NCBI RefSeq assembly: GCF_028826155.1
Contig: NZ_JAQGPN010000001.1
Coordinates: 4,035,501-4,099,500, forward strand
Length of the DNA: 64,000 nucleotides
From: Mesorhizobium shangrilense
GTDB lineage: Bacteria > Pseudomonadota > Alphaproteobacteria > Rhizobiales > Rhizobiaceae
Reading direction: 5' to 3'
Shown here: one piece after another, positions 37,993-60,804 of the stretch
How positions within the stretch are numbered: position 1 is the stretch's first letter
Layout: each line of letters starts with the position of its first letter
Translations under genes and position numbers: made by a program
Notes under the pieces: model-generated
Databases searched by the model: none
The model's input: the letters and a program-made list of their open reading frames with translations, nothing else
What the model was told of the DNA's origin: nothing

Positions 37993-38454
37993 TCACATCC
38001 TCTCCGGGGTCCAGTCGAGGAAGAACCCCACGTCTCCCGGAATGCCGCCCGGGAAGTTGATGATCGTGGCCTTGAGCTTGAAGCCCTGCGGCTTGCCGAA
38101 TTCGAGATATCGAAGGTAGAACTCCTTCGCCTTCCCCTGCAGCGTGTCGGTCCATTTCGGATCGCCGCTATTGATCGCCCGCCCACTGTCGCTGCAGAGG
38201 TCCGAAGGGAAACTGTAGACCATGGCCTCGTACTTGCCGTCCCTCACCGCGTTCATGACGAGGCGTCGCACCATGGCAATCTCGTTCTCCGAGACCTGAT
38301 TCTTCAGGAAATCCTCGGTGAAGGCTGTCAGTCTCTGCTGCTCCTTGTTTTTCTGGGTCTCGAATTTCCTTGCCTCTTTCATCTGCTCTTCCAGCAGCAT
38401 CATGCGAAGCTGGTCGGCGCTCGGCGGGGTATCGTTCTTCTTGATGTCGGGCAT
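37993..38454 (-). CDS. Hypothetical protein downstream of ppk2
   Basis: A 153-residue cytoplasmic protein. Residues 10-60 form a charged helical, probably coiled-coil stretch (LLEEQMKEARKFETQKNKEQ). The C-terminal half is a compact domain with YSFPSDLCSDSGRAIN and KLKATIINFPGGIPGDVGFF. It starts 60 bp after the ppk2 stop and is the last gene of the SulP-ppk2 transcript. I do not recognise the family. The pairing with ppk2 suggests a polyphosphate- or stress-linked role, which is only an inference. Confidence 0.7.
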   Translation of the reverse strand: MPDIKKNDTPPSADQLRMMLLEEQMKEARKFETQKNKEQQRLTAFTEDFLKNQVSENEIAMVRRLVMNAVRDGKYEAMVYSFPSDLCSDSGRAINSGDPKWTDTLQGKAKEFYLRYLEFGKPQGFKLKATIINFPGGIPGDVGFFLDWTPERM

Positions 38455-38514
38455 TTTGCTTCTGCTCCTTGCGTGAGGAAGGGGGCACCTGCAGGCTGAG
38501 GTGCGGCTATGCGA

Positions 38515-39420
38515 TCAGAGCACCTCCGGCACCAGGCGCCGCGGATAATCGTCATCGACGAAGTCGTCGGGCCGCTTCTGCCGCTTGCCCAGCTTCGGTT
38601 CCTGGAACGGGACGCGCCGATACGGGATCGAGTGCAGAATATGCGAGATGCAATTGACCCGCGCGCGCTTCTTGTCGTCCGACGGAACGATCCACCAAGG
38701 AGCGTGCTCGGTGTCCGTGGCGCGTATCATCTCGCCGTAGGCGCGCGTGTAGTCCCACCAACGCCGGTAGGACTCGATGTCCATGGGGCTGAGTTTCCAC
38801 TGCCGGAGAGGATCATCGATGCGCTGCCGAAAACGCTTCTCCTGTTCCTCTTCGCTCACGTCGAGGAAGTATTTGAGCAGGGTGATGCCGCTTTCGACGA
38901 TGGCGGCCTCGAAACGGGGCGCCAGTTCCAGGAAGCGACGCGCCTTCTTCTCGCTGCAGAATCCCATCACGCGCTCGACGCCCGGCCGGTTGTACCAGGA
39001 GCGATCGAAGATCACGACCTCGCCTGCCGCCGGCAGCTGCTGGATGTAGCGCTGCATGTAGATCTGGGTCTTCTCGCGATCCGTCGGCGCCGGCAGCGCC
39101 ACAACGCGGAACACGCGGGGACTGACCCGCTCGACGATACGCTTGATCAGCCCGCCTTTGCCGGCGGCGTCGCGACCCTCGAAAATAATGACGATGCGTG
39201 CGCCGGACTCCTTCACCCAGGCCTGCAGGTAAGCAATCTCGACCTGCAGCTTGGCGAGCTTCTTTTCATAGCGCTCAGCCGACTTCTTCTTTTCCCGCTT
39301 CTCGACCGGCTCCGGCTGGCTGTCAGCCTCGGCGACGGCGGGAGCCTCCCCCTCCAGGGTGCCGCCGTCTCGGCGGTCGTTGCGCTTGTTGTTCTCTTTC
39401 GTGTCCTTGTCCTTGATCAT
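38515..39420 (-). CDS. ppk2: Polyphosphate kinase 2
   Basis: A 301-residue single-domain PPK2 that uses polyphosphate to phosphorylate nucleotides. Walker A is GRDAAGKGG (82-90), Walker B is in VIFDRSWYNRPGVERV, and the lid region is FRQRIDDPLRQWKLS. The first 45 residues are a charged, disordered-looking tail. It starts 40 bp after the SulP stop, so the two are co-transcribed. In a stress island it would buffer ATP/GTP levels when the proton gradient drops. Confidence 0.93.
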   Translation of the reverse strand: MIKDKDTKENNKRNDRRDGGTLEGEAPAVAEADSQPEPVEKREKKKSAERYEKKLAKLQVEIAYLQAWVKESGARIVIIFEGRDAAGKGGLIKRIVERVSPRVFRVVALPAPTDREKTQIYMQRYIQQLPAAGEVVIFDRSWYNRPGVERVMGFCSEKKARRFLELAPRFEAAIVESGITLLKYFLDVSEEEQEKRFRQRIDDPLRQWKLSPMDIESYRRWWDYTRAYGEMIRATDTEHAPWWIVPSDDKKRARVNCISHILHSIPYRRVPFQEPKLGKRQKRPDDFVDDDYPRRLVPEVL

Positions 39421-39460
39421 TGCCTACCTCCCACTACGCTGTGCGAAGATGGCCGCCTGG

Positions 39461-41200
39461 TCAGGCGGTCGTTTTTTTGAGCCTGAGTGCATCCTCGAGA
39501 CTGTCGAACACCATTGCGGGGCCGAGGCGCTCGATCACGCCTGCCCGATCGAGAATGCCGCGCACTTCGGCATGGAGCTCCGCCAGCCCCAGCGAAACGC
39601 CCCGGCCATGGAGTTCGGCGCAAACCTCCTCGAGCATCGCTGCGGCCGAGCTGTCGACCTGCGGTATCGAACTCGCGTCGATGACCAGCCAGCGGGTGTC
39701 GGGCGGCATTCCTTCGGCAATCGTCCGCAACCGCGACTTCACATAGTCGGTATTGAAGAAAAGGAGGCTGCCCTGGAGCACGCAGATGACCATTCCCGGG
39801 ACCGGACGCGCCTCGGCCATTCGATGCAATTTGTAGAAGCCGTCACGGCCGGCAATCCGGCCGAGCATCGCATCGCGGGGATACATCAGCTTGCGCAGAA
39901 GATAGACGAGGGTAGCGCCAATCGCGATGACGACGCCGTTCAGGACGCCAAGGCTGATCGGTCCCCACATTGCTATCAGCGCGAAGGCAAACTCCATCCG
40001 GCTGACACGCCACAGCTGGCGCAGGCCGGCGAAGTCGATGAGATTGAGCGCCGTCGCCGCAAGGATCGCCCCCAGCGCAGCGATCGGCAGAACTCGCAAG
40101 GCCGGCCCGAGAAAAAGCACCGTCGCAATCAGGGCGAGCGCTGCCACCACGCCCGCCACCTGCGTACGCCCCCCGACCGTCACGTTGACCGCAGTGCGCG
40201 AGTCAGAGGCACTCACCGGAAACGCGGCAAAGAGCCCGGCGGCAATGTTCGCGGCGCCGAAACCAACCAGTTCGCGGTTGGGATCGACGGAGTAGCCGCC
40301 CCGCGCGCCAAAGCTCTGCGCCGTGACGACACCAGACCCAAAGCTCACGAGGAATATGGCCGCCGCTCCCAGCGCAAGCGTTTCAAAGGGCAGATTTGCG
40401 ATGGACGGCAGGCTCGGCGCAGGGAGACCGAGGGGAATGTCTCCTACGACGGCGATACCCCGACCTTCGAAGTCGAAGGCGACCGAGAGCGCTCCCGAGA
40501 CCAGGACCACCAGAACCGGACCGGGAACCGGCAGCCGCACGAGCCGCACAGCTTGCAGCAATGCGAACATCGAGACAGCGACGAGCAAGGTCGGCCAATG
40601 AATTGATCCGAGCTTGCCGGCGAGTTCCACGATCGGGCCAATCAGTCCGCTGGCCTGGATATCGAGGCCAGTGAACCGGTCGATTTGCCCAATCAGGATG
40701 GAAAGCGAAATTCCGGCAAAGAACCCGATGAGGATGGGACGGGACAGGAAATTTGCCACGACGCCAAGCCGAAGCGCGCGCGCCAGCAGGCATAGGACGC
40801 CGACTCCCAAAGCCAAGGCGGCGGCGATCATTGTTCGATCCGCCGCCGGCGGCGAACTTCCCATAACAGCGACAAGAACAGCCGCCAGCACCGTCATCGT
40901 GGCCGCATCGGGGCCAACGATGAGCTGCCGGGAAGGTCCGATGAGCGCGTAGGCGAGCAAAGGCCAGATGCTGGCATAGATTCCCGTTTCCGGAGGAAGG
41001 CCAGCGATCGCCGGATAGGCAATGGCGCTCGGCAGGCCAACGGCAGCAATCGCCAGACCCGCGGAGATGTCGCTACGGAGCCAGCTCGCCTTGTATCCTG
41101 CAAGGTTCGTCAGCAACGGCGGGCGCCAGCCAAAAGCGCTCCCGGCCTTCCTGCCCGTCGATGCTACTCTAGCCGCTCCCATTCGCAGAATGGACGTCAT
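39461..41200 (-). CDS. SulP family anion transporter with STAS domain
   Basis: A 579-residue permease: a membrane part of about 12-14 helices (residues 30-430; the SulP block LPSAIAYPAIAGLPPETGIY near 56) and a C-terminal STAS domain (LVIDASSIPQVDSSAAAML near 520). SulP members carry sulfate, bicarbonate or organic anions; the sequence does not decide. Given the nearby decarboxylases, bicarbonate handling is attractive but unproven. First gene of the SulP-ppk2-hypothetical transcript, with a CGCTAC element 156-171 bp upstream. Confidence 0.9.
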   Translation of the reverse strand: MTSILRMGAARVASTGRKAGSAFGWRPPLLTNLAGYKASWLRSDISAGLAIAAVGLPSAIAYPAIAGLPPETGIYASIWPLLAYALIGPSRQLIVGPDAATMTVLAAVLVAVMGSSPPAADRTMIAAALALGVGVLCLLARALRLGVVANFLSRPILIGFFAGISLSILIGQIDRFTGLDIQASGLIGPIVELAGKLGSIHWPTLLVAVSMFALLQAVRLVRLPVPGPVLVVLVSGALSVAFDFEGRGIAVVGDIPLGLPAPSLPSIANLPFETLALGAAAIFLVSFGSGVVTAQSFGARGGYSVDPNRELVGFGAANIAAGLFAAFPVSASDSRTAVNVTVGGRTQVAGVVAALALIATVLFLGPALRVLPIAALGAILAATALNLIDFAGLRQLWRVSRMEFAFALIAMWGPISLGVLNGVVIAIGATLVYLLRKLMYPRDAMLGRIAGRDGFYKLHRMAEARPVPGMVICVLQGSLLFFNTDYVKSRLRTIAEGMPPDTRWLVIDASSIPQVDSSAAAMLEEVCAELHGRGVSLGLAELHAEVRGILDRAGVIERLGPAMVFDSLEDALRLKKTTA

Positions 41201-41504: not shown

Positions 41505-42641
41505 TCAGAACTTGAACAGGGCGCCGCCGAAGAACGCCTGGCTGGTCTCGTATTCGCCGTTGTTGTCGTCGTAGCTGTAGTTACGCCAGAGCAGCCATAG
41601 CGAGAGGTTTGCCGAATCGATGTTCTGGACAGCCGCCAACCCGACGGACTGGCTATCGGAAGCCTCGGCGGCAATGTCCTTGCCGAGATAGTAGTCGACC
41701 GAAAAAGCGGTGGAGCCGATGTCGAAGAAATCGCGCTCGTAGCCGAGTTTCGTATAACCGTAGTAGCCCGAAGGCCCGTCCGTGTCCTCCTGGCCGGCGG
41801 CCAGCGTCAGGCTGATCCCGGAAGCCTTGTGCAGTCCCGAAACCGATCCGGCGAGGAAGTTGGTGTCGTTGGTCTCATTGCGCGAGAGGCTGATCGCGCC
41901 GCCCAGCACGAAATCGTCGAAATCGCCATCGTAGGTTGCTGCGATGTCATACTGGGCGTCCGCGTCGTCGGCGACCCAGTCGACGCCGTAGGACGCGCGC
42001 AGTCCGAAGCCGTTGTACTTCGGCGTATCATACCGCACCCGGAACTTGCGCCCCAATCCGTCGAAGTCCGAGAAGGCATCGCCAACCTGGATGTCCGACA
42101 GATCGTCGTCTTCGAAACGGAAGAAATAGCCCCCGGCGGTGTCCGGAATGCTGGCATAGGCGACGACGGTGGTTCCCGACTTGTCGACTTCGGCGGTGCC
42201 GTCGCTGGCCATGCTGCCCTGCCCGAGCCACAGCTTGCCGAAGCGTTCATTCGCCATGGTGATCTCGGCCTTGCGGATGTTTTTCTGCCCGAAGTCCCAG
42301 TCCGGCGTGTGGTTGACCTGGCTCACGTCGTTCGACGCCAGCGGCTGATACTCAACCTCGAAGGTGGATCCGAAGTTCCAGTCACCTCTGGTTGAGGACA
42401 TCTGCAGACCCGCGCGGGTACTGGAATTGTCATTGTCGACGAAATTGGTGTCGGTTACCTGTCCGTCGTCATAGCTGAGCACGCCCATGTTTATCTGGCC
42501 GTACAATCTTATGACCGTCCCATCGCCGAACGTGTATTCGATCGGCTTCAATCCTTCGGCCGAGGCTGGGCCATGCACAGCCGCAATGCCAAGGAACACA
42601 ACACCTGCGAGGGTGAACGATGGCACCTTGTGGTTCCTCAT
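41505..42641 (-). CDS. Outer-membrane porin
   Basis: A 378-residue Gram-negative porin: signal peptide (about 1-28, HGPASA-EG), then alternating beta-strand sequence (FGDGTVIRLYGQINMGVL) and a C-terminal Phe (GGALFKF), the outer-membrane insertion mark. It is very acidic (many Asp), suggesting preference for cations or low salt. It follows AspT copy 1 by 34 bp and is the last gene of the decarboxylase operon, so it probably lets the amino-acid substrates across the outer membrane. Confidence 0.87.
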   Translation of the reverse strand: MRNHKVPSFTLAGVVFLGIAAVHGPASAEGLKPIEYTFGDGTVIRLYGQINMGVLSYDDGQVTDTNFVDNDNSSTRAGLQMSSTRGDWNFGSTFEVEYQPLASNDVSQVNHTPDWDFGQKNIRKAEITMANERFGKLWLGQGSMASDGTAEVDKSGTTVVAYASIPDTAGGYFFRFEDDDLSDIQVGDAFSDFDGLGRKFRVRYDTPKYNGFGLRASYGVDWVADDADAQYDIAATYDGDFDDFVLGGAISLSRNETNDTNFLAGSVSGLHKASGISLTLAAGQEDTDGPSGYYGYTKLGYERDFFDIGSTAFSVDYYLGKDIAAEASDSQSVGLAAVQNIDSANLSLWLLWRNYSYDDNNGEYETSQAFFGGALFKF

Positions 42642-42675: not shown

Positions 42676-44370
42676 TCAAGAAGGAACGCCCACCGCAATC
42701 ACTATAATGGTTCCCCAAAGAGTTAAAAGAATGTTTGCGACGGGATATGCAGGGGTGTAGCCAAGCACGGCGACCGGGCTTTTCGACTGGCTCTGCACGG
42801 CGGCCATTGCCGCCGTCATCGTGAGCGCGCCTGCAACGCCGCCAAGCAGCAGCACGGGATTCATTTTCAGTACGTAGCGGCCGAAGAACAGCCCGACCAG
42901 CAGCGGCGTCAGCGTCACCACCGCGCCCCCCAGCAAGAGGCCGAGCCCGACTTCCCTGATCGCCGACACGAAGACCGGCCCGGCATGCAGCCCGGTCAGC
43001 GCGACGAACGCCGCCAAGCCGAGCGAGGTCATGAGCGCGATGGCGCCGTCGGGGATCCGCCCGAAAAGCGGGTGGCGGGTCCTGAGGTGGCCGACAACCA
43101 GACCGGCGATCAGGGCGCCGACGCTCGTTCCCAGCGAAACGACGACGCCGCCCAGCGGAAACCGTATGAGCGTGCCCACCAGACCGCCGATGAAGATTGC
43201 CAGGCCGAGCACGATGAAATCCGTCGCCGTCGACGGAGCGATCACCGGCCCGAGACGCGCTGCGGCGTTGTTGACGACGAATTCCGGCCCGACCAGGGTC
43301 AAGACATCGCCTCGTTCGAGCCGCAGTTCGGGGGCTAGCGGCACCTCGACGCCGCCGCGGCTGACGGAACGCAGATAGAGCCCTCGCACCCAGTCTTCTC
43401 CGGCGATCTCCTGGATCGTCCGGCCCGACGGCTGGGTGAAGAGGACGCTGACCACGAGGAAAGGGACGTCCAGCAATTCGCGATCATCCACCTCTTCGGC
43501 GTGAGCTCCTACCAGTTCGACGATGGCCTCGCGACGGCCGGTCACGGCAACGATGTCATTTGCCTCCAGCACAAGGTCGGGACGGGCGTCGATGAGTTCG
43601 CCGCCGCGCCTGATGCGCACGATGAAGAGGCGGCTCTGCGGCACGAGCCTCTCGACGTCCAGTACCGACTTGCCCACCACAACGCCGTCGTCGTCCACCT
43701 CATAGGCCCGGACTTCGAACTGACGATAGCCCGACACCGCGCCCGGCGTCTCGCGCTCGATACCGAGTTGCTGTTCGAGCTTCTTCGCCTCCGCCACGAG
43801 GTCGACCCGCAACAGCTTGGGACCGGCGACGCTGCAAAACCAGATCGCTCCGACCGCACCGAACAGGTAGCAGACCGCATCCGCTACGGCCACGTGCGCA
43901 ACGAGGCGGGCGCGATCGACGTCCGCCAAAGGGAGAGCCCCTATGGCCTCCGTCGCCGTACCCATGGCGGCGCTTTGCGTCAGGGAGCCGGACAGCAGAC
44001 CCGCAGCGAACCCGGCGTCGAGGCCGAGAACCATCGCCACGGCATAAGCGGCGCCCAGTCCTGCGCCCGTACAGACGAGCGAAAGCAGCACCGCATTCAG
44101 TCCGTCCTTTCGCATCGTCTGCAGGAACTGAGGACCGACGGAGTATCCGATCCCGAACAGGAAGAGCAGGAACAGGAACGACTTCGTCATCGGCGAATCG
44201 GGCACATATGCGAACTGCCCGATGAGAATCCCGGCGAAGAGCGACCCCGTCACCGGGCCGAACGAAAAGGTCCCGAACTTGAAACTTCCGAAGTAGTAGC
44301 CGAGAGCAATCGCGAGGTAGAGCGCGAGCTCGGGATACCGGACCAGGAACTGCTCGAGCCAGGATAGCAT
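42676..44370 (-). CDS. AspT/YidE-type antiporter, copy 1
   Basis: A 564-residue aspartate:alanine exchanger family protein. Two five-helix membrane halves flank two RCK_C (TrkA-C) domains at about 205-370. The N-terminal helix block has [11 protein letters not shown] and [15 protein letters not shown]. It lies 9 bp downstream of the aspartate decarboxylase gene. AspT exchanges aspartate for alanine and, coupled with decarboxylation, generates a proton gradient. It is a clear paralogue of the protein encoded at 46.1-47.7 kb. Confidence 0.9.
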   Translation of the reverse strand: MLSWLEQFLVRYPELALYLAIALGYYFGSFKFGTFSFGPVTGSLFAGILIGQFAYVPDSPMTKSFLFLLFLFGIGYSVGPQFLQTMRKDGLNAVLLSLVCTGAGLGAAYAVAMVLGLDAGFAAGLLSGSLTQSAAMGTATEAIGALPLADVDRARLVAHVAVADAVCYLFGAVGAIWFCSVAGPKLLRVDLVAEAKKLEQQLGIERETPGAVSGYRQFEVRAYEVDDDGVVVGKSVLDVERLVPQSRLFIVRIRRGGELIDARPDLVLEANDIVAVTGRREAIVELVGAHAEEVDDRELLDVPFLVVSVLFTQPSGRTIQEIAGEDWVRGLYLRSVSRGGVEVPLAPELRLERGDVLTLVGPEFVVNNAAARLGPVIAPSTATDFIVLGLAIFIGGLVGTLIRFPLGGVVVSLGTSVGALIAGLVVGHLRTRHPLFGRIPDGAIALMTSLGLAAFVALTGLHAGPVFVSAIREVGLGLLLGGAVVTLTPLLVGLFFGRYVLKMNPVLLLGGVAGALTMTAAMAAVQSQSKSPVAVLGYTPAYPVANILLTLWGTIIVIAVGVPS

Positions 44371-44379
44371 GGGGCCGCG

Positions 44380-45993
44380 CTACTTCCCCCCTCGCTTGGA
44401 AGCCTCGTACACGTCCCGATAGCCGCGGGCGATGGCGCGCACGCCCCTGCCGATGTTCTCGTATGCCTCGTCGGGCAGATTGGCCAGCGAGACGCGCATC
44501 GACCACTCGGGTGCGTCAAATCCACCCCCGTTCAGGAGAACTATGCCGTGCCCCTCGGCGAGCCGGAAGGCAAGGTCGAGCGGATGCACGTTCTTCTTCA
44601 GATACGCGACGGCATCGTCCCCGATATTCTTGCGCGCCCAGAACTCGAAATCGATCAGGCCATAGTAGGCGTCGTAGTTTGGATTGGGCGACAGTTCCAG
44701 TCCCAGCGCTTCGATCAAGGACCTGAAGCGCTTGTGCACGATCTCTATGCAGGCCTTCTGGTAGGCCTTTTCCTCGTCCAGGAGTTCGCAAAGCGAAAAC
44801 ATCGTCATCATGACCTGCTGCGGCAGTGACAAGCCGGCAGTGTGGTTGAGGCCGACGTCACGGCTGTCGGCGACAAGGCGATCGATGAATTTGAGCTTTT
44901 GCGGTTCGAGCGAAATCGGCGCGTAGCGCTTGTTCAACGGCTTTGCGCGATCGGCCGGCAGTTTGGCAATCATCTCGTCGAAGATGTTGTCCTCGTGGAT
45001 GCCGATCACACCGAGGCGCCAGCCGGTGCAGCCAAAATACTTGGAGAAGGAGTAGACGCCTATCGTGTTCCTGGGGAGTTCGCCGAGCAGGGAGCGGAAA
45101 CCGTTGACGAAAGTCCCGTAGACGTCGTCGGTCAGGAGCATCAGGTCGGGGCGCTTCGTCTTCACGAGGTTGACGATCTTCGCGAGCGTTTCCCGATCCA
45201 TTCCCATGCCCGTGGGGTTGCCGGGGTTGACGATGAAGAACGCCTTCACCTTGGGGTCTTCGAGCTTCTTGATCTCCTCGTCCGAGTATTGGAACCTGTT
45301 CTCCTGGGGCGCGCTCACCTCGACATATTTGAGGTTGTAATCCTCGAGATGCGTGATCTCGAGATAAGGCGTGAAGATCGGCGTGCCGAGCGCAATGGTG
45401 TCTCCGGGGAGAAGCAGCCGATTGGCCTTGAGCGACTTGAAGATGTAGCACATCGCCGCCGTGCCGCCCTCGACCGCGAAGAGGTCGAACTTGCCGGCCG
45501 GGCGCGGTTCGCCGCACATGGCCCACATCAGGTATTCGTGCACGACCTGCTCGTTATGGACGAGCATGCGGTCCGGCACCGGATAGTTGTCGCCGATGAT
45601 CGAATCGACCAGTTCATGAACGAAGGCGTCGGGCTTGAACGAGAACTTCTTGACCGCAAACTTAACCATCTCCGACAGCATGGCGGCGCCGGGCATGTCG
45701 TCGTGCTTGTCCAGCCATTTCTCCAGTCGCCGGGCGATGCCGTCCGCCTGCGGCATCCCTCCGATGCCGGGCGCCTTGTCCATCACGCGCTTGCTCTCGG
45801 TGATGGCGAACTGGCCAAGCAGAAAGAACGCCTCTCGCGGCTTTGTGGCGATCCAATTTGGGTTGCCTCGCCCCGCGTTCAGGAAGGCCATTTGAGCGGT
45901 CTTTGAGGCCTCCTTGGCCAAAGTGATCAGCTCGTCCTTGATCTCGAATGGGCTGAGCGCCTCGAATTTGCGAAGGGTCAAAAGGTCAGCCAT
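44380..45993 (-). CDS. aspD: Aspartate 4-decarboxylase (bifunctional aspartate aminotransferase/beta-decarboxylase)
   Basis: A 537-residue PLP enzyme that converts L-aspartate to L-alanine and CO2, consuming a proton. The PLP lysine is Lys318 in VYSFSKYFGCTGWRLG, matching Lys315 of characterised Pseudomonas enzymes. FIVNPGNPTGMGM is the cofactor-phosphate region, and the N-terminal arm (LLTLRKFEALSPFEIKDEL) fits the dodecameric family. Genes for AspT-type exchangers lie on both sides (gaps of 9 and 61 bp), the classic asd-aspT proton-motive cycle. Confidence 0.95.
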   Translation of the reverse strand: MADLLTLRKFEALSPFEIKDELITLAKEASKTAQMAFLNAGRGNPNWIATKPREAFFLLGQFAITESKRVMDKAPGIGGMPQADGIARRLEKWLDKHDDMPGAAMLSEMVKFAVKKFSFKPDAFVHELVDSIIGDNYPVPDRMLVHNEQVVHEYLMWAMCGEPRPAGKFDLFAVEGGTAAMCYIFKSLKANRLLLPGDTIALGTPIFTPYLEITHLEDYNLKYVEVSAPQENRFQYSDEEIKKLEDPKVKAFFIVNPGNPTGMGMDRETLAKIVNLVKTKRPDLMLLTDDVYGTFVNGFRSLLGELPRNTIGVYSFSKYFGCTGWRLGVIGIHEDNIFDEMIAKLPADRAKPLNKRYAPISLEPQKLKFIDRLVADSRDVGLNHTAGLSLPQQVMMTMFSLCELLDEEKAYQKACIEIVHKRFRSLIEALGLELSPNPNYDAYYGLIDFEFWARKNIGDDAVAYLKKNVHPLDLAFRLAEGHGIVLLNGGGFDAPEWSMRVSLANLPDEAYENIGRGVRAIARGYRDVYEASKRGGK

Positions 45994-52566: not shown

Positions 52567-52612
52567 TTGTCCGTGCGTGCGTTGTCCGCGGGGACAATGT
52601 ACGGAAGGACAG
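52567..52612. promoter_or_regulatory. Four-half-site nested palindrome between TPR regulator and sensor kinase
   Basis: Half-sites TTGTCC at 52567-52572 and 52582-52587, and GGACAA at 52592-52597 and GGACAG at 52607-52612, are symmetric about 52589.5: TTGTCC-N9-TTGTCC-N4-GGACAA-N9-GGACAG. Direct half-sites are 15 bp apart. It lies in the 302-bp divergent spacer (52471-52772), which holds no gene. It looks like a site for two dimers of a response regulator or other regulator. Confidence 0.7.
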
Positions 52613-52772
52613 GTAACAGCGTCCGGAGGCTCGCATAAAAGGAACAGCGCACCAGCAAATGGCCGGTGTACGTTCTCACACGCGCATTCAGAGACCGAAT
52701 GCGCGGTATGGTTGCTTTGCAGCAGCCACCCGCAAACTGTCAGGCAGAAGTCGGAGGCGCGTTCCCCGCTCC

Positions 52773-54629
52773 ATGTTCCTCGGCTGGGTCGTCCTCCTTT
52801 GCCTGATGTCCTTGGTCCCGGAGGCGTCGGCGGCTGATCCACGGACGAGATCGATCCTGGTTCTCGAGCAGTCGGATGTGAGGGGCCCCTTCTATGCCGC
52901 GATCTTCAACGGCTTGCGCTCGAAGGTGAACGATCCCGCCTCTGCGCCGGTCACACTCTATGCCGAGAACCTGGACCTCAGCCGTTTCGGCGGAGAGGAT
53001 TACGAGCAAAGCCTGCAGCGGCACCTCGTCACAAAGTATCGCGACAAGCCGATCGGGGCCGTGGTCGCCGTCGGGGCTGCCGCACTCGAGTACGCCCTGC
53101 GCTGGCGTTCGGATCTGTGGCCGGACGTTCCGGTGGTGTTTGCGTTCGTCGATGAAGCGACGATCGCCGGCCTGTCGCTTCCTCACAACGTCACGGGCAG
53201 GATGACGAGATTGCGGCTGCGCGACATGGTGGAGGCCGGGCGCGCTGTCGTGCCTTCCCTCAGGCATGTCGCGCTCCTCGGCGACCACCTTGAGGATCAG
53301 CCCGTCTTTAGGCACTTCGCAGACGAGATTCCGGCGATCGAAGAGGAACTGGACGTCATGGATCTCACCGGCATGCCGATGCCGGAGCAGCGGCGGCGCG
53401 TCAGCGCACTATCGAGCGACACCGCCATCCTCTACACAGCGGGCTATTCCGACGGGGCCGGAACGTATTTTCCACCCACCGATGCGCTCGCCCTGATCGC
53501 CGAGGCGGCCAACAGACCGATCGTGGCGCCCCTCGAAAGCTACATTGGTCGCGGGGCGGTCGGGGGCTATGTCGCGTTTCCAGCGCTCATTGGAACGGAA
53601 GCCGCGGAACTCGCACTTGAGATTCTCGACGGCAGGGATGTCGCCAGCATCCCCATCGCCGTAGGGGATTCTATGAAGCCGGTCTTCGATTGGCGTCAGC
53701 TCAAGCGATGGGGCGTGGACGAGCGCCGCCTTCCCGCGGGCAGCGAGATCCGCAACCGCGTCCTGCCCATCTGGCGGCAATATCCCCAGGAGGTGGCCAG
53801 CATCGCGCTGGTTCTGCTCTTGCAGAGCGGCCTCATCGCGGCCTTGCTCTATGAGCACAAGCAGCGGCGAAAGGCAGAGGTCGAAGCGCGCGCGAGATTG
53901 AGCGAACTGGCGCATGTGAACCGACAGGCCACGGCCAGCGAGCTTTCCGCATCCATTGCGCACGAGCTCAACCAGCCGCTCGGCGCGGTGCTCGCCAATG
54001 CCGAAACCGCCGAACTGCTGCTAGGCTCCCCGCAGCCGGACGTCGAAGAGATCAAGGAAATCCTGGGCGACGTCAGGCGCAACACCCAGCGGGCGAGCGA
54101 CGTCATTTCCAGGCTGCGCCGCCTGCTGAAGAAGGCACAGGTCGAGCCGCACGATGTCGACGTGAATCAGGTGGTCGATGAGGTCTTCAAGTTCGTCTCC
54201 GCTCAAGCGTCGGCGAGCGATGTCGATCTCACCCAGCGTCTAGAACCGCGACCTCTCGGCATCCGGGGGGACACGATCCAGTTGCAGCAGGTGGTTCTGA
54301 ACCTCGTCATCAACGGCATCGAAGCGATCGGCGATGCCCGGGGAGGGTCGCGGCGGATGGTCGTCGGCAGCACAGCCCGGCTCAGCGATGCCTTGGTCGA
54401 GATTGCCGTCTCGGACTCCGGTCCCGGCATAGCCGCCGACAAGCTGGGCAATGTCTTCGATCCGTTCTACACCACCAAGACCCATGGGATGGGGATGGGA
54501 CTGTCGATAGCCCGCACCATCATCGAGGCGCATGGCGGCTCCATCCACGCCGAAAACCAGTGCGGCGGAGGCAGCATCTTCCGGGTCCGACTGCCGCTGA
54601 CTCAGTCGCCGGCCGAGGAAGTTCAATGA
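52773..54629 (+). CDS. Sensor histidine kinase with periplasmic ABC-binding-protein-like sensor
   Basis: About 618 residues. A signal/anchor start, then a periplasmic sensor (about 25-330) with the fold-type of ABC substrate-binding (SILVLEQSDVRGPFY...AVVAVGAAALEYAL), one membrane helix (about 340-360), a short linker and the kinase: His397 in SIAHELNQPLG, N-box NLVINGIEAI, G1 SDSGPGIA, F-box FDPFYTTK, G2 GMGMGLSIART. ATG 52773 opens the signal; an ATG at 52659 would add 38 residues. The stop overlaps the response regulator start (ATGA), so the two are a matched pair. Confidence 0.88.
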   Translation: MFLGWVVLLCLMSLVPEASAADPRTRSILVLEQSDVRGPFYAAIFNGLRSKVNDPASAPVTLYAENLDLSRFGGEDYEQSLQRHLVTKYRDKPIGAVVAVGAAALEYALRWRSDLWPDVPVVFAFVDEATIAGLSLPHNVTGRMTRLRLRDMVEAGRAVVPSLRHVALLGDHLEDQPVFRHFADEIPAIEEELDVMDLTGMPMPEQRRRVSALSSDTAILYTAGYSDGAGTYFPPTDALALIAEAANRPIVAPLESYIGRGAVGGYVAFPALIGTEAAELALEILDGRDVASIPIAVGDSMKPVFDWRQLKRWGVDERRLPAGSEIRNRVLPIWRQYPQEVASIALVLLLQSGLIAALLYEHKQRRKAEVEARARLSELAHVNRQATASELSASIAHELNQPLGAVLANAETAELLLGSPQPDVEEIKEILGDVRRNTQRASDVISRLRRLLKKAQVEPHDVDVNQVVDEVFKFVSAQASASDVDLTQRLEPRPLGIRGDTIQLQQVVLNLVINGIEAIGDARGGSRRMVVGSTARLSDALVEIAVSDSGPGIAADKLGNVFDPFYTTKTHGMGMGLSIARTIIEAHGGSIHAENQCGGGSIFRVRLPLTQSPAEEVQ

Positions 54630-55321
54630 GCTACACGATCCACATTGTCGACGATGACGAAGCGTTTCGTACTGCCATCGGCCGTCTGCTGCGGGCGCAC
54701 GGCTACAATACCGCCGAGTATCAGTCTGCAGACAGTTTCCTTGAGCAGGCTCGCCACGGCATGGAAGCGGGCTGCATCGTACTGGACGTCCGACTGCCGG
54801 GGCTGAGCGGACCCGACCTGCAAACCCGTCTGAGTGCGGCAGGCGACCCCTTTCCGATCGTCTTCCTGACCGGACACGGCGACGTTCCCACCACGGTCCG
54901 CGCAATCAAGGCCGGCGCCGAGGATGTCCTGACAAAACCTGTTCCCGGGCCCGTCCTGCTCGACAGCATCGCCCGCGCCTTTCGAAGATACGATTCGGAA
55001 CAGACCCAGCGGGAATGGCTCAAGAGCGCGCGGTCCCTGCTCGACACCCTTACCGTGCGCGAGCGGGAGGTGTTCGAGCATGTCGTTCGAGGCAGATTGA
55101 ACAAGCAGACCGCGCAATCGCTTGGCATCACTGAGCGGACGATCAAGGCGCACCGCCAGCGCATCTTCGACAAACTCGGCGCCAGGTCGGTCGCCGATCT
55201 CGTCTCGATGGCGGAGCGTCTCGGCCTGCTGGTCGATGCTCCTCCGGCTGGCGCAGCCTCAGTTGCCGGCGACGCATGGCCAGCCGGCAAGCCGCCGCTC
55301 CCAGCCGTCGACCGGGGCTAA
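54626..55321 (+). CDS. FixJ/NarL-type response regulator
   Basis: A 231-residue regulator: receiver domain (phosphoacceptor Asp54 in CIVLDVRLPGLSG, acidic triad in HIVDDDEAF, Thr in FLTGHGD, Lys in LTKPV) and a LuxR-type helix-turn-helix (LTVREREVFEHVVRGRLNKQ, SLGITERTIKAHRQRIFDKL). A Pro/Ala tail of 25 residues follows. Translationally coupled to the kinase. It is the best candidate to bind one of the two repeated elements of the island. FixJ-type relatives act as activators. Confidence 0.92.
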   Translation: MSYTIHIVDDDEAFRTAIGRLLRAHGYNTAEYQSADSFLEQARHGMEAGCIVLDVRLPGLSGPDLQTRLSAAGDPFPIVFLTGHGDVPTTVRAIKAGAEDVLTKPVPGPVLLDSIARAFRRYDSEQTQREWLKSARSLLDTLTVREREVFEHVVRGRLNKQTAQSLGITERTIKAHRQRIFDKLGARSVADLVSMAERLGLLVDAPPAGAASVAGDAWPAGKPPLPAVDRG

Positions 55322-55350: not shown

Positions 55351-55366
55351 CTGTCCGTCAGGACAA
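55351..55366. promoter_or_regulatory. CTGTCC-N4-GGACAA palindrome upstream of the receiver gene
   Basis: CTGTCC (55351-55356) and GGACAA (55361-55366) with a 4-base spacer, matching 11 of 12 arm positions of the central palindrome at 52582-52597. It lies 30 bp after the FixJ-type gene and 96 bp before the receiver gene, so it may control the latter. No flanking half-sites are seen here. Confidence 0.6.
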
Positions 55367-55461: not shown

Positions 55462-55847
55462 ATGCTGACTGGCAAGCTCGTACATGTGGTCGACGACGAC
55501 AGCGGCTTCCTGAAGGCGCTCGAGCGGCTGCTCAAGGCGCATGGGCTGCAGGTCAGAACCTTTGCCTCCGCCGAAAAATTCGAGTCGGAGGCAGATCCCT
55601 CCGAGGCGGCGTGCCTCATCGTGGACATCCAGCTGGGCGGCATGACGGGGATCGACCTGCTGCGCCGGCTGTCCGACGCCGGCATACAGGTTCCGGTCGT
55701 CCTGGTGACGGCCAACGACAGTGAAACGATGCGCAGGCCGCTGCCGCCGCAGGCTGCAGCGCGTATCTCGAGAAGCCGTTCGCGGCGAAAGCACTGATGG
55801 ACGCAGTCAGCGCAGCTGTAGCTCGGAGTGGAGGACAGGCGCTCTGA
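55462..55847 (+). pseudogene. Receiver-domain response regulator with a frameshift
   Basis: Starts MLTGKLVHVVDDDSGF and keeps receiver features through VTANDSETMRR, including Asp55 in CLIVDIQLGG. After Arg92 the frame derails (RPLPPQAAARIS... to a stop at 55797). In the next frame the expected rest of the domain continues at once: AAGCSAYLEKPFAAKALM, with the conserved Lys-Pro, ending at TGA 55845-55847. One missing G near 55735-55738 (AGGCC for AGGGCC) explains it. With the base restored it would be a 128-residue single receiver. It may be a real lesion or a sequencing error. Confidence 0.8.
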
Positions 55848-56035: not shown

Positions 56036-56308
56036 ATGGCGGATGCGAAAAATCGGTCGATGCCCCTGAGCGCCGCTTTGGCTCGGTTCGTGGATGTTGC
56101 CGACCTCATCAAGTCCCGACTGCATACAGATGAGGTGCTGCGCGACCTGTGCGAGGACTATAGGCTGGCGCGAGAGACGCTCACCCGGCTGAGGAAGGAA
56201 AAGCCGAAGAATTCAAGCCGGATCGCCGAGTACGCGTCTCTCGTTGCGGAGACCGAGGATGAGATCATCCGGCATCTACTGGACACAGAGGGGCGGAAGA
56301 GTGGATGA
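56036..56308 (+). CDS. Small helical hypothetical protein
   Basis: A 90-residue soluble, charged, all-helical protein (ALARFVDVADLIKSRLHTDE, LRKEKPKNSSRIAEYASLV). The ATG at 56036 is one of several close ATGs (56028, 56036); GAGGGA lies 11-15 bases upstream. It is the first gene after the third CGCTAC element and precedes the membrane/HlyD pair by 116 bp. I do not recognise the family. It could be a small regulator or adaptor, but nothing in the sequence says so directly. Confidence 0.6.
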   Translation: MADAKNRSMPLSAALARFVDVADLIKSRLHTDEVLRDLCEDYRLARETLTRLRKEKPKNSSRIAEYASLVAETEDEIIRHLLDTEGRKSG

Positions 56309-56424
56309 TCGACCGCTGCGAAGTGCCCGACACGGCTAATAGACGGGCGACAGGCGACGCGCAGGTCGCCGACCCCGGGGAGGCCGGCGCGTCGAAAAAC
56401 GCGGTCCGGAAGGGATGAGCGGTG

Positions 56425-56988
56425 ATGACGAACGTCGTGATGCATCCAGCAGCCCCTGAGCACCTGCCCGTGTTCATAACGGCGCCGGGACAATCGGACG
56501 TGTTCATGATCGGATGCGTCATTTTCCTTGTCCTCGCGGTTGTGGGACTGGGAAGCCTCTACTTCAAGCTGCACGCGCTGCCCGAACATCTCGCGCATGG
56601 CAACGCCAGCAAACTGCAGTTCGAAGTCGTGTCCGTGCTGGCGCTCTTGGGTCTGTTCACTCACAACAACACCTTTTGGATCGCGGCTTTGCTCCTCGCG
56701 TTCGTTCCGATCCCCGACCTCCATGCGCCGCTCGTGACAATGGCCGAGTCGCTGGCCAAGATGGCCGGACGGCTTGGATCATCCTCGCGGACCGACGCGC
56801 CGGCCTCCGGGGCGCAGGAGGAGATCGCATGGGGAACGCCGCCCGCCGAAACGCCTCCACCAGGTCCGATTGGGACCGGCGGCAGCCACCTGAACGACGC
56901 AACCCCTCAGGCGACTGTCAACAGCGGACACGCGCCAAGCGGGAGCGCTGCCGGCAAACAGCCTCGTCCGGAGCACAAGGAGAGTTGA
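56425..56988 (+). CDS. Small inner-membrane protein (DUF3302-like), partner of HlyD-like protein
   Basis: About 187 residues. Two membrane helices (about 28-48 and 72-98, FMIGCVIFLVLAVVGLGSLY and VSVLALLGLFTHNNTFWIAA) are linked by LHALPEHLAHGN. This resembles E. coli YiaW (DUF3302), whose gene is paired with the HlyD-like YiaV. The last 80 residues are Pro/Gly/Ser-rich and look disordered, an addition to the family. A GTG at 56422 is an equal start. It ends 2 bp before the HlyD-like gene, so the two are coupled. Confidence 0.65.
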   Translation: MTNVVMHPAAPEHLPVFITAPGQSDVFMIGCVIFLVLAVVGLGSLYFKLHALPEHLAHGNASKLQFEVVSVLALLGLFTHNNTFWIAALLLAFVPIPDLHAPLVTMAESLAKMAGRLGSSSRTDAPASGAQEEIAWGTPPAETPPPGPIGTGGSHLNDATPQATVNSGHAPSGSAAGKQPRPEHKES

Positions 56989-56990
56989 GC

Positions 56991-58226
56991 ATGATTGAGC
57001 TGCTTCTCTGCTCTGTCGTAACCATCCTCCCCGATTTCCTCTATCGACGCTTCGTACAGGGAAAGAGGATCGGCCACGAGATCACGCTGTTTACGGTGTG
57101 GTATGAGCTGCGATACGGGATAACGACGTGTCTCGCCCTCACGATCATGCTCTTCACGCTGATCCTCTACTACCATCCGTCGACGTCGAACGCCGTTTCG
57201 TACTACCGGACTGTGCCAGTCCTTCCCGAGGGGTCCGGCCGCGTGGAAGAGGTCTTCGTGAACCTCAGGGACAAGGTCAAGGCCGGCCAACCCATCTTCA
57301 GGCTCGACAGCTCGGAGCAAGAGGCGGCGCTGGAAACATCACGTCGACGCCTCGCGGAGGTTGACGCATCGGTCGCCCTTGCCAAGTCCCAACTGCTGGT
57401 TTCCGACGCCCAGATCGGCGAGGCCCAGAGCGCATATCAGCAGGCGGTGGACGAACTCGCCACGAAGACCGAACTGATGGAGCGGAACTCTCCCTCCGTC
57501 ACGCGCCGCGAGATCGAAAGGCTGCAGAACCTCGTCAACGGGAGGCAAGCCAGCCTGTCTGCGTCCGTTGCCAGCAAGCAAACGATCGAGACCGAAATCT
57601 CTTCGGTCCTTCCATCGCAGAAAGCCAGCGCCGAAGCCCAGCTCAAGCAGGCACAGGTCGAACTCGACAAGATGATCGTGCGGGCCGGCATCGACGGCAC
57701 GCTGGAGCAGTTCACGCTCCGCAGAGGCGACGTCGTCAACCCGTTGATGCGGCCGGCGGGTGTCCTTGTCCCCGCGGAGGCTGGACGATGGGGCCTGCTG
57801 GCCGGCTTCAACCAGCTGGAAGCCCAGGTGATGGCGGTCGGCATGGTTGCCGAGGTCACCTGCGTTTCCAAGCCGATGACAATCATTCCTATGGTCGTTA
57901 CAAACGTGCAGTCACTGATCGCGGCAGGCCAGGTCCGCGCGTCCGACCAGTTGATTGACGCTCAGCAGACAGTCGGCCAGGGAACGATCACCGTCTATCT
58001 CGAACCGCTCTTCGAGGGCGGGTTCGAAGGCGTCATGCCCGGCAGCAGTTGCATTGCCAACGCCTATACAAACAACCACGAGATACTCGCAACGCAGGAT
58101 CTGGGCACGCTGACGCGGGTGTATCTCCACGTCATCGATACGGTCGGGCTCGTCCACGCCCTCGTTCTCAGAATCCAGGCATTGCTGCTCCCAATCAAAA
58201 CACTGGTTTTCTCGGGAGGCCACTGA
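56991..58226 (+). CDS. HlyD family membrane-fusion protein
   Basis: A 411-residue periplasmic adaptor. An N-terminal membrane segment (about 40-62), a lipoyl/barrel-sandwich half (VLPEGSGRVEEVFVNLRDKV), a coiled-coil hairpin (about 110-235, KSQLLVSDAQIGEAQS), and the second lipoyl half (DKMIVRAGIDGTLEQF). AAGGAGAG lies 7 bases upstream of the ATG. No ABC exporter, RND pump or TolC gene is nearby, as in the YiaV-YiaW and YibH-YibI pairs. The likely role is in the envelope, with the small membrane partner upstream. Confidence 0.82.
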   Translation: MIELLLCSVVTILPDFLYRRFVQGKRIGHEITLFTVWYELRYGITTCLALTIMLFTLILYYHPSTSNAVSYYRTVPVLPEGSGRVEEVFVNLRDKVKAGQPIFRLDSSEQEAALETSRRRLAEVDASVALAKSQLLVSDAQIGEAQSAYQQAVDELATKTELMERNSPSVTRREIERLQNLVNGRQASLSASVASKQTIETEISSVLPSQKASAEAQLKQAQVELDKMIVRAGIDGTLEQFTLRRGDVVNPLMRPAGVLVPAEAGRWGLLAGFNQLEAQVMAVGMVAEVTCVSKPMTIIPMVVTNVQSLIAAGQVRASDQLIDAQQTVGQGTITVYLEPLFEGGFEGVMPGSSCIANAYTNNHEILATQDLGTLTRVYLHVIDTVGLVHALVLRIQALLLPIKTLVFSGGH

Positions 58227-58275
58227 CGGGCTTACTCGGCCGGTAGATCGGCGCGGGTAGTGCCGGCCATCGAGC

Positions 58276-59538
58276 ATGACGGACAAGGAGCAGGCAGTGC
58301 CGCCATCAGCTTCAGCCCCGCGCATGGCGCGCCGCTTGCGGCGGAGCGCGCTGTGCCGAGCCTTCATTGCCGCCTTCATATCCGTGGCGGTCGCCGGTTG
58401 CGTCGGAGGTACCGACATCCGGGATGCAGTTCCGCAACTCCTCGTCGACAACGCGCAGGTCGTCGGCTACGGGCCGATCCGCATATGGGGAGATGATCGC
58501 GGCGGGGTTACCGAACAGGAAGTCATAGCGGTCCGGAAGCAACGCACCGCGGCGGCCCGGACCGATCCCTCGATTAATCTCAAGTCGGTCAACGCTCTGA
58601 CCATCTCCGGCGGCGGCAGCTCCGGCGCGTTCGGCGCCGGCATCCTGTCGGGCTGGACCGCCCATGGCGACAGGCCGAAGTTCGACATCGTGACCGGCAT
58701 CAGCACCGGCGCGCTGATCGCGCCTTTCGCCTTTCTGGGACCGGAATATGACGGACAGCTGACCGAAGCCTTCACGACCGTCGACGGCAAGGACATCTAC
58801 GAGCGCAACAACCTGTTCACCGCACTCCGGACAGGTTCGTTCACGAGCAACATGCCGCTGCGGCGGATGATCGAGAAGTACATGACCCCCGAGGTGATCG
58901 ACCGAATCGCCCGTGAACATACAAAGGGGCGGCGTCTGCTGATCGGCACGACGAACCTCGACGCCGAGCGGCCGGTGATCTGGAACATGGGGGCGATCGC
59001 GGCCAGCAATGTCCCGGGGCGAGACAAGCTGTTCCATGACGTCGTGCTGGCATCGGCCGCAATTCCCGGCGTGTTTCCACCAGTCGACATCAAGGTCGTG
59101 GCGGACGGACGGACATACGACGAGATGCATGTCGATGGCGGCACCAGCAACCAGGTCTTTCTGATGCCAGCCAGCCTGTCCCTCAAGAGCATCGACCGGA
59201 AGCTTGGGGTCTCCGGGATGAAGCGGCGCCTCTACGTTATCCGCAACGGTCGTACCTCGCCGGAATTCAGCGTCGTCAAGCACCGGCTCCTGCCGATCGC
59301 CGGCAAGTCCATCTCGTCGCTCCTGAAAACCCAGGGCGTTGGCGACATCTACCGGCTCTACACCATGTCGAGGCGAGACGGTGTCGACTTCAACTTCATC
59401 GCCATGCCCACCTCCTTCACCGAAGCCGAAGAAACGCCTTTCGATCCGAAGTACATGAACGCCCTCTACCAGACCGGATACGCTATGGCGCGAAACGGCA
59501 TGCCCTGGGAAAAACTGCCTCCAGGCTATGAGGATTGA
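58276..59538 (+). CDS. Patatin-like phospholipase, predicted lipoprotein
   Basis: A 420-residue protein. After a positively charged N-terminus a hydrophobic segment ends in the lipobox VAGC (Cys42). The patatin domain has the oxyanion loop GGGSSGAFG (112-120), nucleophile Ser143 in GISTG, and Asp287 in the DGG motif, a full Ser-Asp dyad. It should cut acyl chains from phospholipids at the membrane surface. It follows the HlyD-like gene by 49 bp. It lacks the outer-membrane barrel of PlpD-type proteins. Confidence 0.87.
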   Translation: MTDKEQAVPPSASAPRMARRLRRSALCRAFIAAFISVAVAGCVGGTDIRDAVPQLLVDNAQVVGYGPIRIWGDDRGGVTEQEVIAVRKQRTAAARTDPSINLKSVNALTISGGGSSGAFGAGILSGWTAHGDRPKFDIVTGISTGALIAPFAFLGPEYDGQLTEAFTTVDGKDIYERNNLFTALRTGSFTSNMPLRRMIEKYMTPEVIDRIAREHTKGRRLLIGTTNLDAERPVIWNMGAIAASNVPGRDKLFHDVVLASAAIPGVFPPVDIKVVADGRTYDEMHVDGGTSNQVFLMPASLSLKSIDRKLGVSGMKRRLYVIRNGRTSPEFSVVKHRLLPIAGKSISSLLKTQGVGDIYRLYTMSRRDGVDFNFIAMPTSFTEAEETPFDPKYMNALYQTGYAMARNGMPWEKLPPGYED

Positions 59539-59607
59539 CCGATTGCGTCGGTCTGCGCGGACGGTGCGCAGCGAGCGATCAGGCAGATATCCGACCGTCG
59601 CCGATCA

Positions 59608-60804
59608 TCATTCCCCGGCGCGCAACTGCGGGTCTGCGCCTGGTGCTTCACCTGCGACTTCAGCCCGAAGGGCCGGTGTTTTCACACCCGTGGGGCCGCC
59701 GACGACGAGTTCCTGATCCCGGCCGTCGACCGCGGCACTATGCGTCGTGTTCTCAGCGCTTCCCTCGGCGATCCAGGCGTTGAGCAGGGTGTAGGTCACG
59801 GCCAGCACGGTCGGACCGATAAAGATGCCCAGGAACCCGAACGCGATCAGCCCGCCGATGACCCCTGCAAAAATGAGCAGCAGTGGCAGATCCGCTCCCC
59901 TCCGTATCAGTATCGGGCGTATGACCTGGTCGATCGTCCCCGCAACCAGCGTGAAGACAAGCAGCACGGTTCCCCATACGATGTCACCTGTGTAGTAGAG
60001 CCAGATGACAGCCGGAACCATGACGAGAGCGGGTCCGAGCTGGATGAGGCAGAGCACGAACATCAGCGCCGTCAGCAGTCCGGCGAAAGGCAGGCCTACC
60101 GCCGCCAGCCCCACTCCGCCGATGATGCTCTGCGCAAATGCGGTGACGACGACGCCGAGCGCCACGCTGCGGATCGCCTGCCCAGCCAGGTATACGGCCC
60201 TTTCACCACGGTCGCGCGCAAGCCGCCGCCCAAAGAGAACCAGATAGGCCCCTGCCCGTTCACCGCCGGCATACATGACTGCGGCGATCACCGTCGTAAG
60301 CAGAAACTGCACCAGCATCCCGCCCAAGCTGCCGGCAGCAGACGCGAGCCATTGCGTCAACGATCCGACGTATGGCGAGAGCTTGGGCGTCAGTTGCTCC
60401 ACATTGGCAGCGGTCAGCTTGCCCCAAGCGTTGACGATGGGAGCGCCGACCAGAGGAAGGTTTGCGACCCAATCCGGCAACGGCGGCACCCGCATGGACA
60501 GCACAGTCCGCAACAGATCGCCGAACAGATCGATATTAGTGACCACTGTGCTGATCGCCAGCCAGACCGGGACGATGAGTACCAGGAGGATGGTGAGCGT
60601 CATCACCACGACGGCTACCCAACGGCGACCGCCGGCACGCCGCTCCACCCACAGCATCAGCGGCCAGGTGGCCAGGACCAGCGTCGTCGCCCACAGGATG
60701 GCTGGCAGAAGCGGCTGCATTATCCAGAAGCTTGCGACCAGGAGGCCACCGATGAACAACACGGTGAGGGTAATCCGGCCGATATCCTGATGATTGTTCG
60801 TCAT
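59608..60804 (-). CDS. AI-2E family transporter
   Basis: A 398-residue membrane protein of the AI-2 exporter-like (TqsA/YdiK/PerM) superfamily: about eight helices with the family's broken middle (SVALGVVVTAFAQSIIGGVG, GLPFAGLLTALMFVLCLIQLG, and VIRPILIRRGADLPLLLIF with the conserved P-ILI). The last 45 residues are soluble. It is convergent with the patatin gene and divides the island from the atp operon. Family members export AI-2 or act as Na+/H+ antiporters; the substrate is not known here. Confidence 0.87.
   Translation of the reverse strand: MTNNHQDIGRITLTVLFIGGLLVASFWIMQPLLPAILWATTLVLATWPLMLWVERRAGGRRWVAVVVMTLTILLVLIVPVWLAISTVVTNIDLFGDLLRTVLSMRVPPLPDWVANLPLVGAPIVNAWGKLTAANVEQLTPKLSPYVGSLTQWLASAAGSLGGMLVQFLLTTVIAAVMYAGGERAGAYLVLFGRRLARDRGERAVYLAGQAIRSVALGVVVTAFAQSIIGGVGLAAVGLPFAGLLTALMFVLCLIQLGPALVMVPAVIWLYYTGDIVWGTVLLVFTLVAGTIDQVIRPILIRRGADLPLLLIFAGVIGGLIAFGFLGIFIGPTVLAVTYTLLNAWIAEGSAENTTHSAAVDGRDQELVVGGPTGVKTPALRAEVAGEAPGADPQLRAGE

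Follow-up and report, generated by a model that had tools for sequence, protein, structure and literature searches.

An inserted island of decarboxylase, antiporter and polyphosphate kinase genes in Mesorhizobium shangrilense and its relatives across Alphaproteobacteria

The window analysed here is a stretch of 64,000 nucleotides from Mesorhizobium shangrilense (contig NZ_JAQGPN010000001.1). Between rnhB and the atp genes it carries an island of ~17 genes (block 37993-60804, ~23 kb) which include okrDC, coding for a decarboxylase of ~910 amino acids (aa), the aspartate decarboxylase gene aspD, two genes for AspT-family antiporters, the polyphosphate kinase gene ppk2, two-component genes and the adaptor gene hlyD. 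The island has been inserted at this place and forms, for the most part, a unit; it is a genuine module of an unusual kind. Judging from sequence comparison, we see about an even chance that it is the local copy of a set, recurring across Alphaproteobacteria, which maintains membrane energy, internal pH and nucleotides under limited respiration; as its trigger, low oxygen has the better support. The narrower proposal of a mobile low-oxygen energy module centred on a new pair, made of an Rv2531c-type decarboxylase and its AspT partner, is put forward tentatively, as possible rather than probable.

The borders of the island are formed by the following genes.

37244..37930, plus strand: rnhB, left border, outside the module; ribonuclease HII-like open reading frame (ORF), named from sequence
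61249-61728 and 61734-62354: atpF copies on the right side of the island, the first being atpF2

The rnhB gene adjoins atpF2 in all three congeners of our collection, which holds four genomes of the genus including that of the window; ~140, 305 and 666 bases separate the rnhB and atpF2 tblastn matches at these empty sites. Because the two genes are neighbours there, the block is an insertion, as the first-pass annotation of the window had supposed, and its reading as ancestral content of the rnhB–atp interval is rejected. No tRNA gene is found within the 64-kb window, and a scan of 30 ORFs at 34-64 kb gave neither an integrase nor a transposase. The GC content is little informative (0.60-0.65 in the island, against 0.64-0.66 towards rnhB and 0.61-0.645 towards atp). 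Among named genomes the closest copies of okrDC are those of Pseudaminobacter arsenicus (90%) and of a Rhizobiaceae metagenome-assembled genome (84%), then that of Ancylobacter (79%); Phyllobacterium (five records, 69-75%) ranks behind Ancylobacter, and two further family genomes have copies at 85-86%. This ranking of similarities across taxa fits a putative horizontal movement of the gene.

Among 121 genomes of the family (109 genera), okrDC is found at an identity of at least 70% in 5, aspD in 9 (one of them a fragment and one at 46%) and hlyD in 12. All five genomes with okrDC also carry aspD (hypergeometric p 6e-7) and hlyD (p 4e-6), and seven of the nine with aspD carry hlyD (p 4e-7), although these p-values are only guides, related genomes being non-independent, which tempers the case for a unit. 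In the five genomes a single contig carries all three genes, no more than about 15 kb apart. At the level of the order (219 genomes), where aspD is rare (3 genomes, the window's included), long-type okrDC is present at 68% identity or more in six genomes and hlyD lies within 7 kb of it in five; the sixth, G139, has hlyD on a different contig and is an exception to the linkage. That the genes form one set had been claimed by the first-pass annotation; in the main it holds, okrDC, aspD and hlyD co-occurring far above chance instead of independently of one another.

Recurrence of the gene set and its decarboxylase–antiporter pairs

A contig scan with okrDC returned 330 relatives, the best 80 of which were kept as loci; 69 of these 80 have full 10-kb flanks, absences thus partly reflecting limited reach. 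Together with the window and 8 family genomes they make up 89 neighbourhoods, whose ORFs were clustered without prior labels. Bradyrhizobium-type neighbourhoods (49 of the 89) were counted separately. The commonest neighbours of okrDC mostly belong to families of the window itself: AspT (71 of 89), hlyD (65), ppk2 (60), the permease gene sulP (55, often only 32-36% identical), response regulators (55), hyp153, which codes for a protein of 153 aa (47), the histidine kinase (47), the AI-2E family permease (34, 30-80% identical), aspD (33), the tetratricopeptide repeat (TPR) protein (23, none Bradyrhizobium-type) and the porin (14). A tblastn search of the window genes on the 80 loci gave matches for hlyD and for its small partner in 61 each, for hyp153 and ppk2 in 57 each, for sulP in 55, for the kinase in 45, and for the AI-2E gene and aspD in 32 each. 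No match to rnhB, atpF, atpB or the patatin gene was found in these 80 loci (flanks of at most 10 kb). The closeness of the island to the ATP synthase genes, to which the first-pass annotation had given a functional meaning, therefore looks incidental.

Several recurrent clusters are not represented in the window region 34-64 kb, namely DUF3300 (48), DUF2950 (40), an ion channel (34), DUF2092 (15) and a Na/Ca exchanger (10); a cluster of FixK-like genes (46) occurs in the Bradyrhizobium loci. In Bradyrhizobium-type loci DUF3300 is present in 42 of 49 and DUF2950 in 29 of 49. Gene order and strand vary among loci. An order near that of the window is kept in G070, G018, L004 and L006 (G and L numbers are those of our genomes and loci), and rnhB/atpF are absent from their compared flanks. 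Parts of the set are also found with okrDC in Paracoccus, Stappia, Devosia, Kaistia, Bosea and Gemmobacter. The G082 genome carries much of the module without long-type okrDC. Two loci, L123 and L126 (G290, G335), feature DUF3300/DUF2950, the FixK-like gene, ppk2, hlyD and the FNR boxes described below, while no okrDC was identified in their genomes at E 1e-100; okrDC is thus dispensable to the gene set. Note that L052, titled Frankia sp. RB7, has the module order and the similarity of a Bradyrhizobium-type locus; its label may be wrong.

The two decarboxylases and the two antiporters are encoded contiguously in the window (gene starts, here and below, are mechanical).

42676..44370, minus strand: AspT-family antiporter a (TIGR03802 568 bits, cut-off 547; nearly full length to solved Asp/Ala antiporters)
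44380..45993, minus strand: aspD, predicted L-aspartate 4-decarboxylase (NF006755 788 bits, cut-off 321; TIGR03801 784 bits, cut-off 435; nearly full length to 2zy2)
46055..47746, minus strand: AspT-family antiporter b (TIGR03802 699 bits, cut-off 547)
47840..50572, minus strand: okrDC, 910-aa OKR-type (Rv2531c-type) pyridoxal phosphate (PLP) decarboxylase (PF01276; the open frame extends to 50725)

The AspT genes flank aspD with gaps of about 10 and 60 bp, and the models of aspD clearly predict an L-aspartate 4-decarboxylase. The okrDC product is a full-length homologue of PDB 9n0o/9n0n, with E 9e-221 for residues 43-902. Its THK and DEAW motifs are invariant in 18 aligned sequences, as are the PLP-site residues K573, H572, D495 and W498. 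None of the acid-resistance models was passed by okrDC: it scores 177 bits with LdcC (968 required), 165 with arginine decarboxylase (1167) and 144 with SpeF (1310). Entry 9N0O is identified in a review as Rv2531c, a probable amino acid decarboxylase of unknown activity and substrate (PMC12910592).

In 31 of the 49 Bradyrhizobium-type loci and in 34 of 36 others, the gene that follows okrDC on its strand belongs to the AspT family (65/85; the following gene is the next scored ORF, unlabelled ORFs of up to 150 aa being skipped). The clade of AspT b adjoins okrDC in 31 of its 35 members, and 32 of the 35 are in loci with aspD. A separate AspT clade adjoins okrDC in all of its 34 members, none of which has aspD in the flanks compared. 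The pairing of okrDC with AspT is thus independent of aspD, which suggests that the AspT partner carries the substrate or the product of okrDC. Gene order suggests likewise that okrDC and its AspT-family neighbour form an undescribed decarboxylase-antiporter pair. This steady association makes the substrate question of the Rv2531c-type enzyme testable, the carrier narrowing the candidate substrates. More distant okrDC relatives (46-49% identity) have different surroundings where these were compared. Around those at 47-49% in G114, G079, G116 and G049, stretches of 20-28 kb contain no further gene of the island. Loci of the 47-49% class (L107, L109, L110, L112) carry CN_hydrolase, AAT-family acyltransferase and class-III aminotransferase genes, possibly a biosynthetic setting.

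Candidate regulatory sites

The Bradyrhizobium-type loci are rich in the box TTGAT-N4-ATCAA, which we take to be the FNR/FixK motif. Perfect boxes number 159 in the 49 loci versus 0.7 expected from first-order Markov sequences, relaxed boxes (TTGAY-N4-RTCAA) 256 versus 2.3, and 48 of the 49 loci have at least one perfect box. Ten whole Bradyrhizobium genomes picked from the 49 (85 Mb) contain 276 perfect boxes, 30 of which lie in the 227 kb of module loci (0.27% of the DNA), where 0.74 are expected (p 4e-38); single genomes have 4 of 38 (p 4e-6) and 4 of 30 (p 9e-7) of their boxes in the module. Positions from 300 upstream to 100 inside the gene start were then considered. Relaxed (perfect) boxes are found at 39 (30) of 42 DUF3300 starts, 20 (18) of 22 for AI-2E, 19 (14) of 19 for DUF1275, 32 (23) of 69 for AspT and 15 (13) of 39 for sulP, as well as at 33 (30) of 34 hyp153 and 25 (22) of 28 HlyD partner starts, two genes that are often divergent, so that a single box may count twice. 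At okrDC, 39 of the 49 starts have a relaxed box within these limits, and only 4 of 49 a perfect one. The regulator, kinase and FixK-like gene starts of Bradyrhizobium have no perfect or relaxed box. The FixK-like gene scores 215 bits (under the cut-off of 300) and the FixJ-like regulator 198 (under 255), while the kinase of these loci is related to that of the window, mostly at 36-53%. Identity of the Bradyrhizobium locus with the fixK1 locus was considered and is weakened, the table passage for bll6059-blr6074 (presumably the fixK1 region) naming other genes.

The double counting and the scarcity of perfect boxes at okrDC count against a low-oxygen control of the whole set, and so do three further observations. 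Locus L037, of the Bradyrhizobium-type, has okrDC, aspD and two AspT genes, with no ppk2 or hlyD match, and lacks a perfect box. FNR boxes are not enriched in the 40 other neighbourhoods (1 observed versus 2.0 expected). The window region 34-64 kb has neither a perfect nor a relaxed box. The oxygen link of the M. shangrilense island is therefore borrowed from its relatives, since there is no FNR enrichment outside Bradyrhizobium, the window included.

A different sequence, the palindrome TTGTCC-N4-GGACAA, is found among the regulatory genes of the window.

50794..52470, minus strand: TPR protein, predicted regulator (PF07719)
52582..52597, no strand: perfect palindrome, predicted operator, in the gap of the divergent TPR and histidine kinase genes
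52659..54629, plus strand: histidine kinase with an ABC_sub_bind-like sensor domain (HisKA, HATPase_c, PF04392)
54626..55321, plus strand: FixJ-like response regulator with receiver and LuxR-type helix-turn-helix domains (PF00072 and PF00196; NF006900 FixJ 178 bits, under the cut-off of 255)
55351..55366, no strand: second copy of the palindrome, one mismatch, ahead of the second receiver gene
55462..55797, plus strand: second regulator, receiver domain only, with a frame shift at the 3′ end when compared to homologues

The palindrome occupies the divergent TPR–regulator gap in all six window-type loci (the window, L004, L005, L006, G070, G018) with 0-2 mismatches. It recurs ahead of the second receiver gene in five of them (1-2 mismatches) and is absent there in G018. 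In 9 of 10 Bosea-type loci it lies 27-149 bases before the okrDC start, with 0-2 mismatches. Its numbers speak less clearly: the genome-wide enrichment is modest (156 sites versus 114 for the reversed control in 11 genomes; 16 versus 9 in the window's genome), the intergenic count in Bosea-type loci (6) is no higher than that of the best palindrome of one shuffle, and the window shows a mild enrichment at up to 3 mismatches (32 versus 17.3). Chance as the origin of these sites is weakened by their conserved place, not by their count; the role of the palindrome is only a prediction because of the modest excess over the reversed control. The sites are probably used, in window-type loci, by the local kinase and its FixJ-like regulator. 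Regulation of the set seems to have been rewired, being of FNR/FixK type in Bradyrhizobium and probably of kinase/FixJ-like type in window-type loci. The C-terminal part of the second receiver gene continues in another frame when compared to L004 and L005, which may reflect a pseudogene or a sequence error.

Other genes of the island

The remaining genes of the block are listed here. The gene list of the first-pass annotation was confirmed with its coordinates, apart from a few small genes that it did not list: hyp153, the second receiver gene and the 90-aa ORF.

37993..38454, minus strand: hyp153, 153-aa protein beside ppk2, no known domain (1322 relatives)
38515..39420, minus strand: ppk2, polyphosphate kinase 2 (PF03976 333 bits; TIGR03707 361 bits, cut-off 302)
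39461..41200, minus strand: SulP family permease with STAS domain (PF00916; TIGR00815 366 bits, just below the cut-off of 380)
41505..42641, minus strand: porin (no Pfam match of its own; homologues carry PF13609 and the name porin)
56036..56308, plus strand: 90-aa ORF, recurring in 5 of 89 neighbourhoods
56422..56988, plus strand: small protein ahead of hlyD, probably membrane (no Pfam match; its tblastn matches in the loci are mostly beside hlyD)
56991..58226, plus strand: hlyD, HlyD-like periplasmic adaptor (TIGR00998 68 bits, under the cut-off of 391)
58276..59538, plus strand: patatin-like protein, probably a passenger (PF01734)
59608..60804, minus strand: AI-2E family permease, YdiK type (NF008216 370 bits, cut-off 305)

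The alignment of hyp153 has 22 invariant columns across 31 sequences. Some records name this protein a histidine kinase, a name discarded here as Pfam and NCBIfam detect no kinase domain, and its predicted fold (mean pLDDT 72.6) gave no PDB match with an E value of 0.001 or lower. The homologue P0057, of 251 aa, has a PPK2 domain in addition. Two more PPK2 genes are found elsewhere in the genome (G000:C1:4421505 and 2159156). A role of SulP as bicarbonate carrier, suggested in the first-pass annotation, finds no support (131 bits versus the BicA cut-off of 880). The porin homologue P0193 (630 aa) has an OKR decarboxylase domain in the same record, either a fusion or a read-through. What had been described as an HlyD-like pair consists of one HlyD-like protein and of the small protein without Pfam match; a DUF3302 label for the latter is rejected for the same reason. 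Membership of the patatin gene in the module is unsupported, given its lack of matches in the 80 related loci.

Proposed function and comparison with known systems

In the proposed scheme AspD would convert aspartate to alanine and CO2 with uptake of a proton inside the cell, and AspT would swap aspartate(1-) for alanine(0), thereby building membrane potential. The exchange by AspT of Tetragenococcus halophilus is described as electrogenic (PMC9508256). The Rv2531c-type decarboxylase, together with an AspT-family partner of its own, would run the same kind of cycle on some amino acid. Polyphosphate would serve PPK2 to replenish nucleotides, and the porin, SulP, the AI-2E permease and the HlyD pair may move solutes and ions across the envelope; one member of the AI-2E family is described as a Na+(Li+)/H+ antiporter (PMC7221264). 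Such activities would together suit a cell whose respiration no longer provides energy. Low oxygen is favoured as trigger because of the FNR/FixK-type boxes found in one large genus.

The set could instead be a gathering of independent stress genes in accessory hot spots, with no single module. Its composition indeed differs by locus and sub-sets occur alone: hlyD and its partner are found in G106, G022 and G074 with no other module genes within 20 kb, aspD is present in only 6 of the 49 Bradyrhizobium-type loci, and at least four of six core families are present in only 16 of 36 non-Bradyrhizobium loci, versus 43 of 49 Bradyrhizobium-type. Moreover, the SulP, AI-2E, AspT and kinase proteins of Bradyrhizobium are often distant from those of the window (30-53% identity; mostly 30-36% for SulP and AI-2E) and may differ in function. 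All this weighs against a single unit, but it is the same dozen families that return in dissimilar genomes and gene orders, the co-occurrence of okrDC, aspD and hlyD is far above chance and one box type precedes many Bradyrhizobium operons, which makes the hot-spot explanation improbable. More improbable still is a mainly host- or symbiosis-associated module induced in nodules. FixK-type boxes would suit nodules, and two transcriptome studies cited for root-nodule bacteria found DUF2950 and DUF3300 induced (PMC4653623); yet these two clusters are without a member at 34-64 kb of the window, and the presence of okrDC with parts of the set in genera such as Paracoccus, Stappia, Devosia, Kaistia, Bosea and Gemmobacter argues against such a restricted role.

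A stronger competitor, though in our judgement an unlikely one, is an acid-resistance island in which both decarboxylases use up protons when the pH is low and the antiporters swap substrate for product, low oxygen being secondary. Amino-acid-dependent acid resistance is known to work through pairs of a decarboxylase and an antiporter, and the island holds two decarboxylases along with two AspT antiporters in a block on one strand. The AI-2E relative mentioned above is moreover described with a pH response (PMC7221264). Against this stand the assignment of okrDC, which is not of the AdiA/LdcC/SpeF type and falls far under those cut-offs, and the electrogenic exchange described for AspT (PMC9508256), which would serve energy too. 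The strongest regulatory signature found is the FNR/FixK box of Bradyrhizobium, and the acid-only, ATP synthase-linked reading of the first-pass annotation is unsupported as it was stated.

Should the energy-module reading be correct, many soil and marine alphaproteobacteria, including nodule bacteria, would carry a portable back-up energy kit. Cells whose respiration has stalled could then generate membrane potential at the expense of amino acids, and nucleotides at the expense of polyphosphate. Oxygen sensing would be joined in one regulon with polyphosphate and with the decarboxylation of amino acids, and the orphan Rv2531c-type decarboxylases would receive a first functional lead. The module also places DUF2950/DUF3300 in a gene neighbourhood, whereas one paper reported no hints from neighbouring genes for them (PMC4653623).

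No description of the module was found in the literature searched; the FixK2 regulon tables (Mesa et al. 2008) are outside it and may list some of the genes. The terms 'decarboxylase', 'polyphosphate' and 'antiporter' are absent from the main text of PMC6515984 and PMC4999443, which deal with such regulons. The likeness to the FixLJ-FixK2 microoxic regulon of Bradyrhizobium lies in the same box type near module operons and in the FixJ-like regulator and FixK-like gene of the locus, whereas the window's own copy has no perfect box. The AdiA/AdiC, CadA/CadB and SpeF/PotE acid resistance systems also combine an OKR-fold decarboxylase with an antiporter gene alongside; the window's ~910-aa enzyme differs by lying far under the AdiA, LdcC and SpeF cut-offs and by having a partner of the AspT family, no APC-type antiporter (AdiC, CadB, PotE) being among the Pfam/NCBIfam matches of the ORFs scanned. 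The aspartate decarboxylase–AspT cycle of T. halophilus is matched by aspD and AspT of the window, which pass curated models, are adjacent and have the same predicted chemistry. The M. shangrilense pair, unlike that of T. halophilus, sits in a 17-gene block with an Rv2531c-type decarboxylase, two AspT paralogues, ppk2 and two-component genes. Within this block okrDC itself finds its counterpart in Rv2531c (PDB 9N0O), to which it is homologous over the full length and similar in length.

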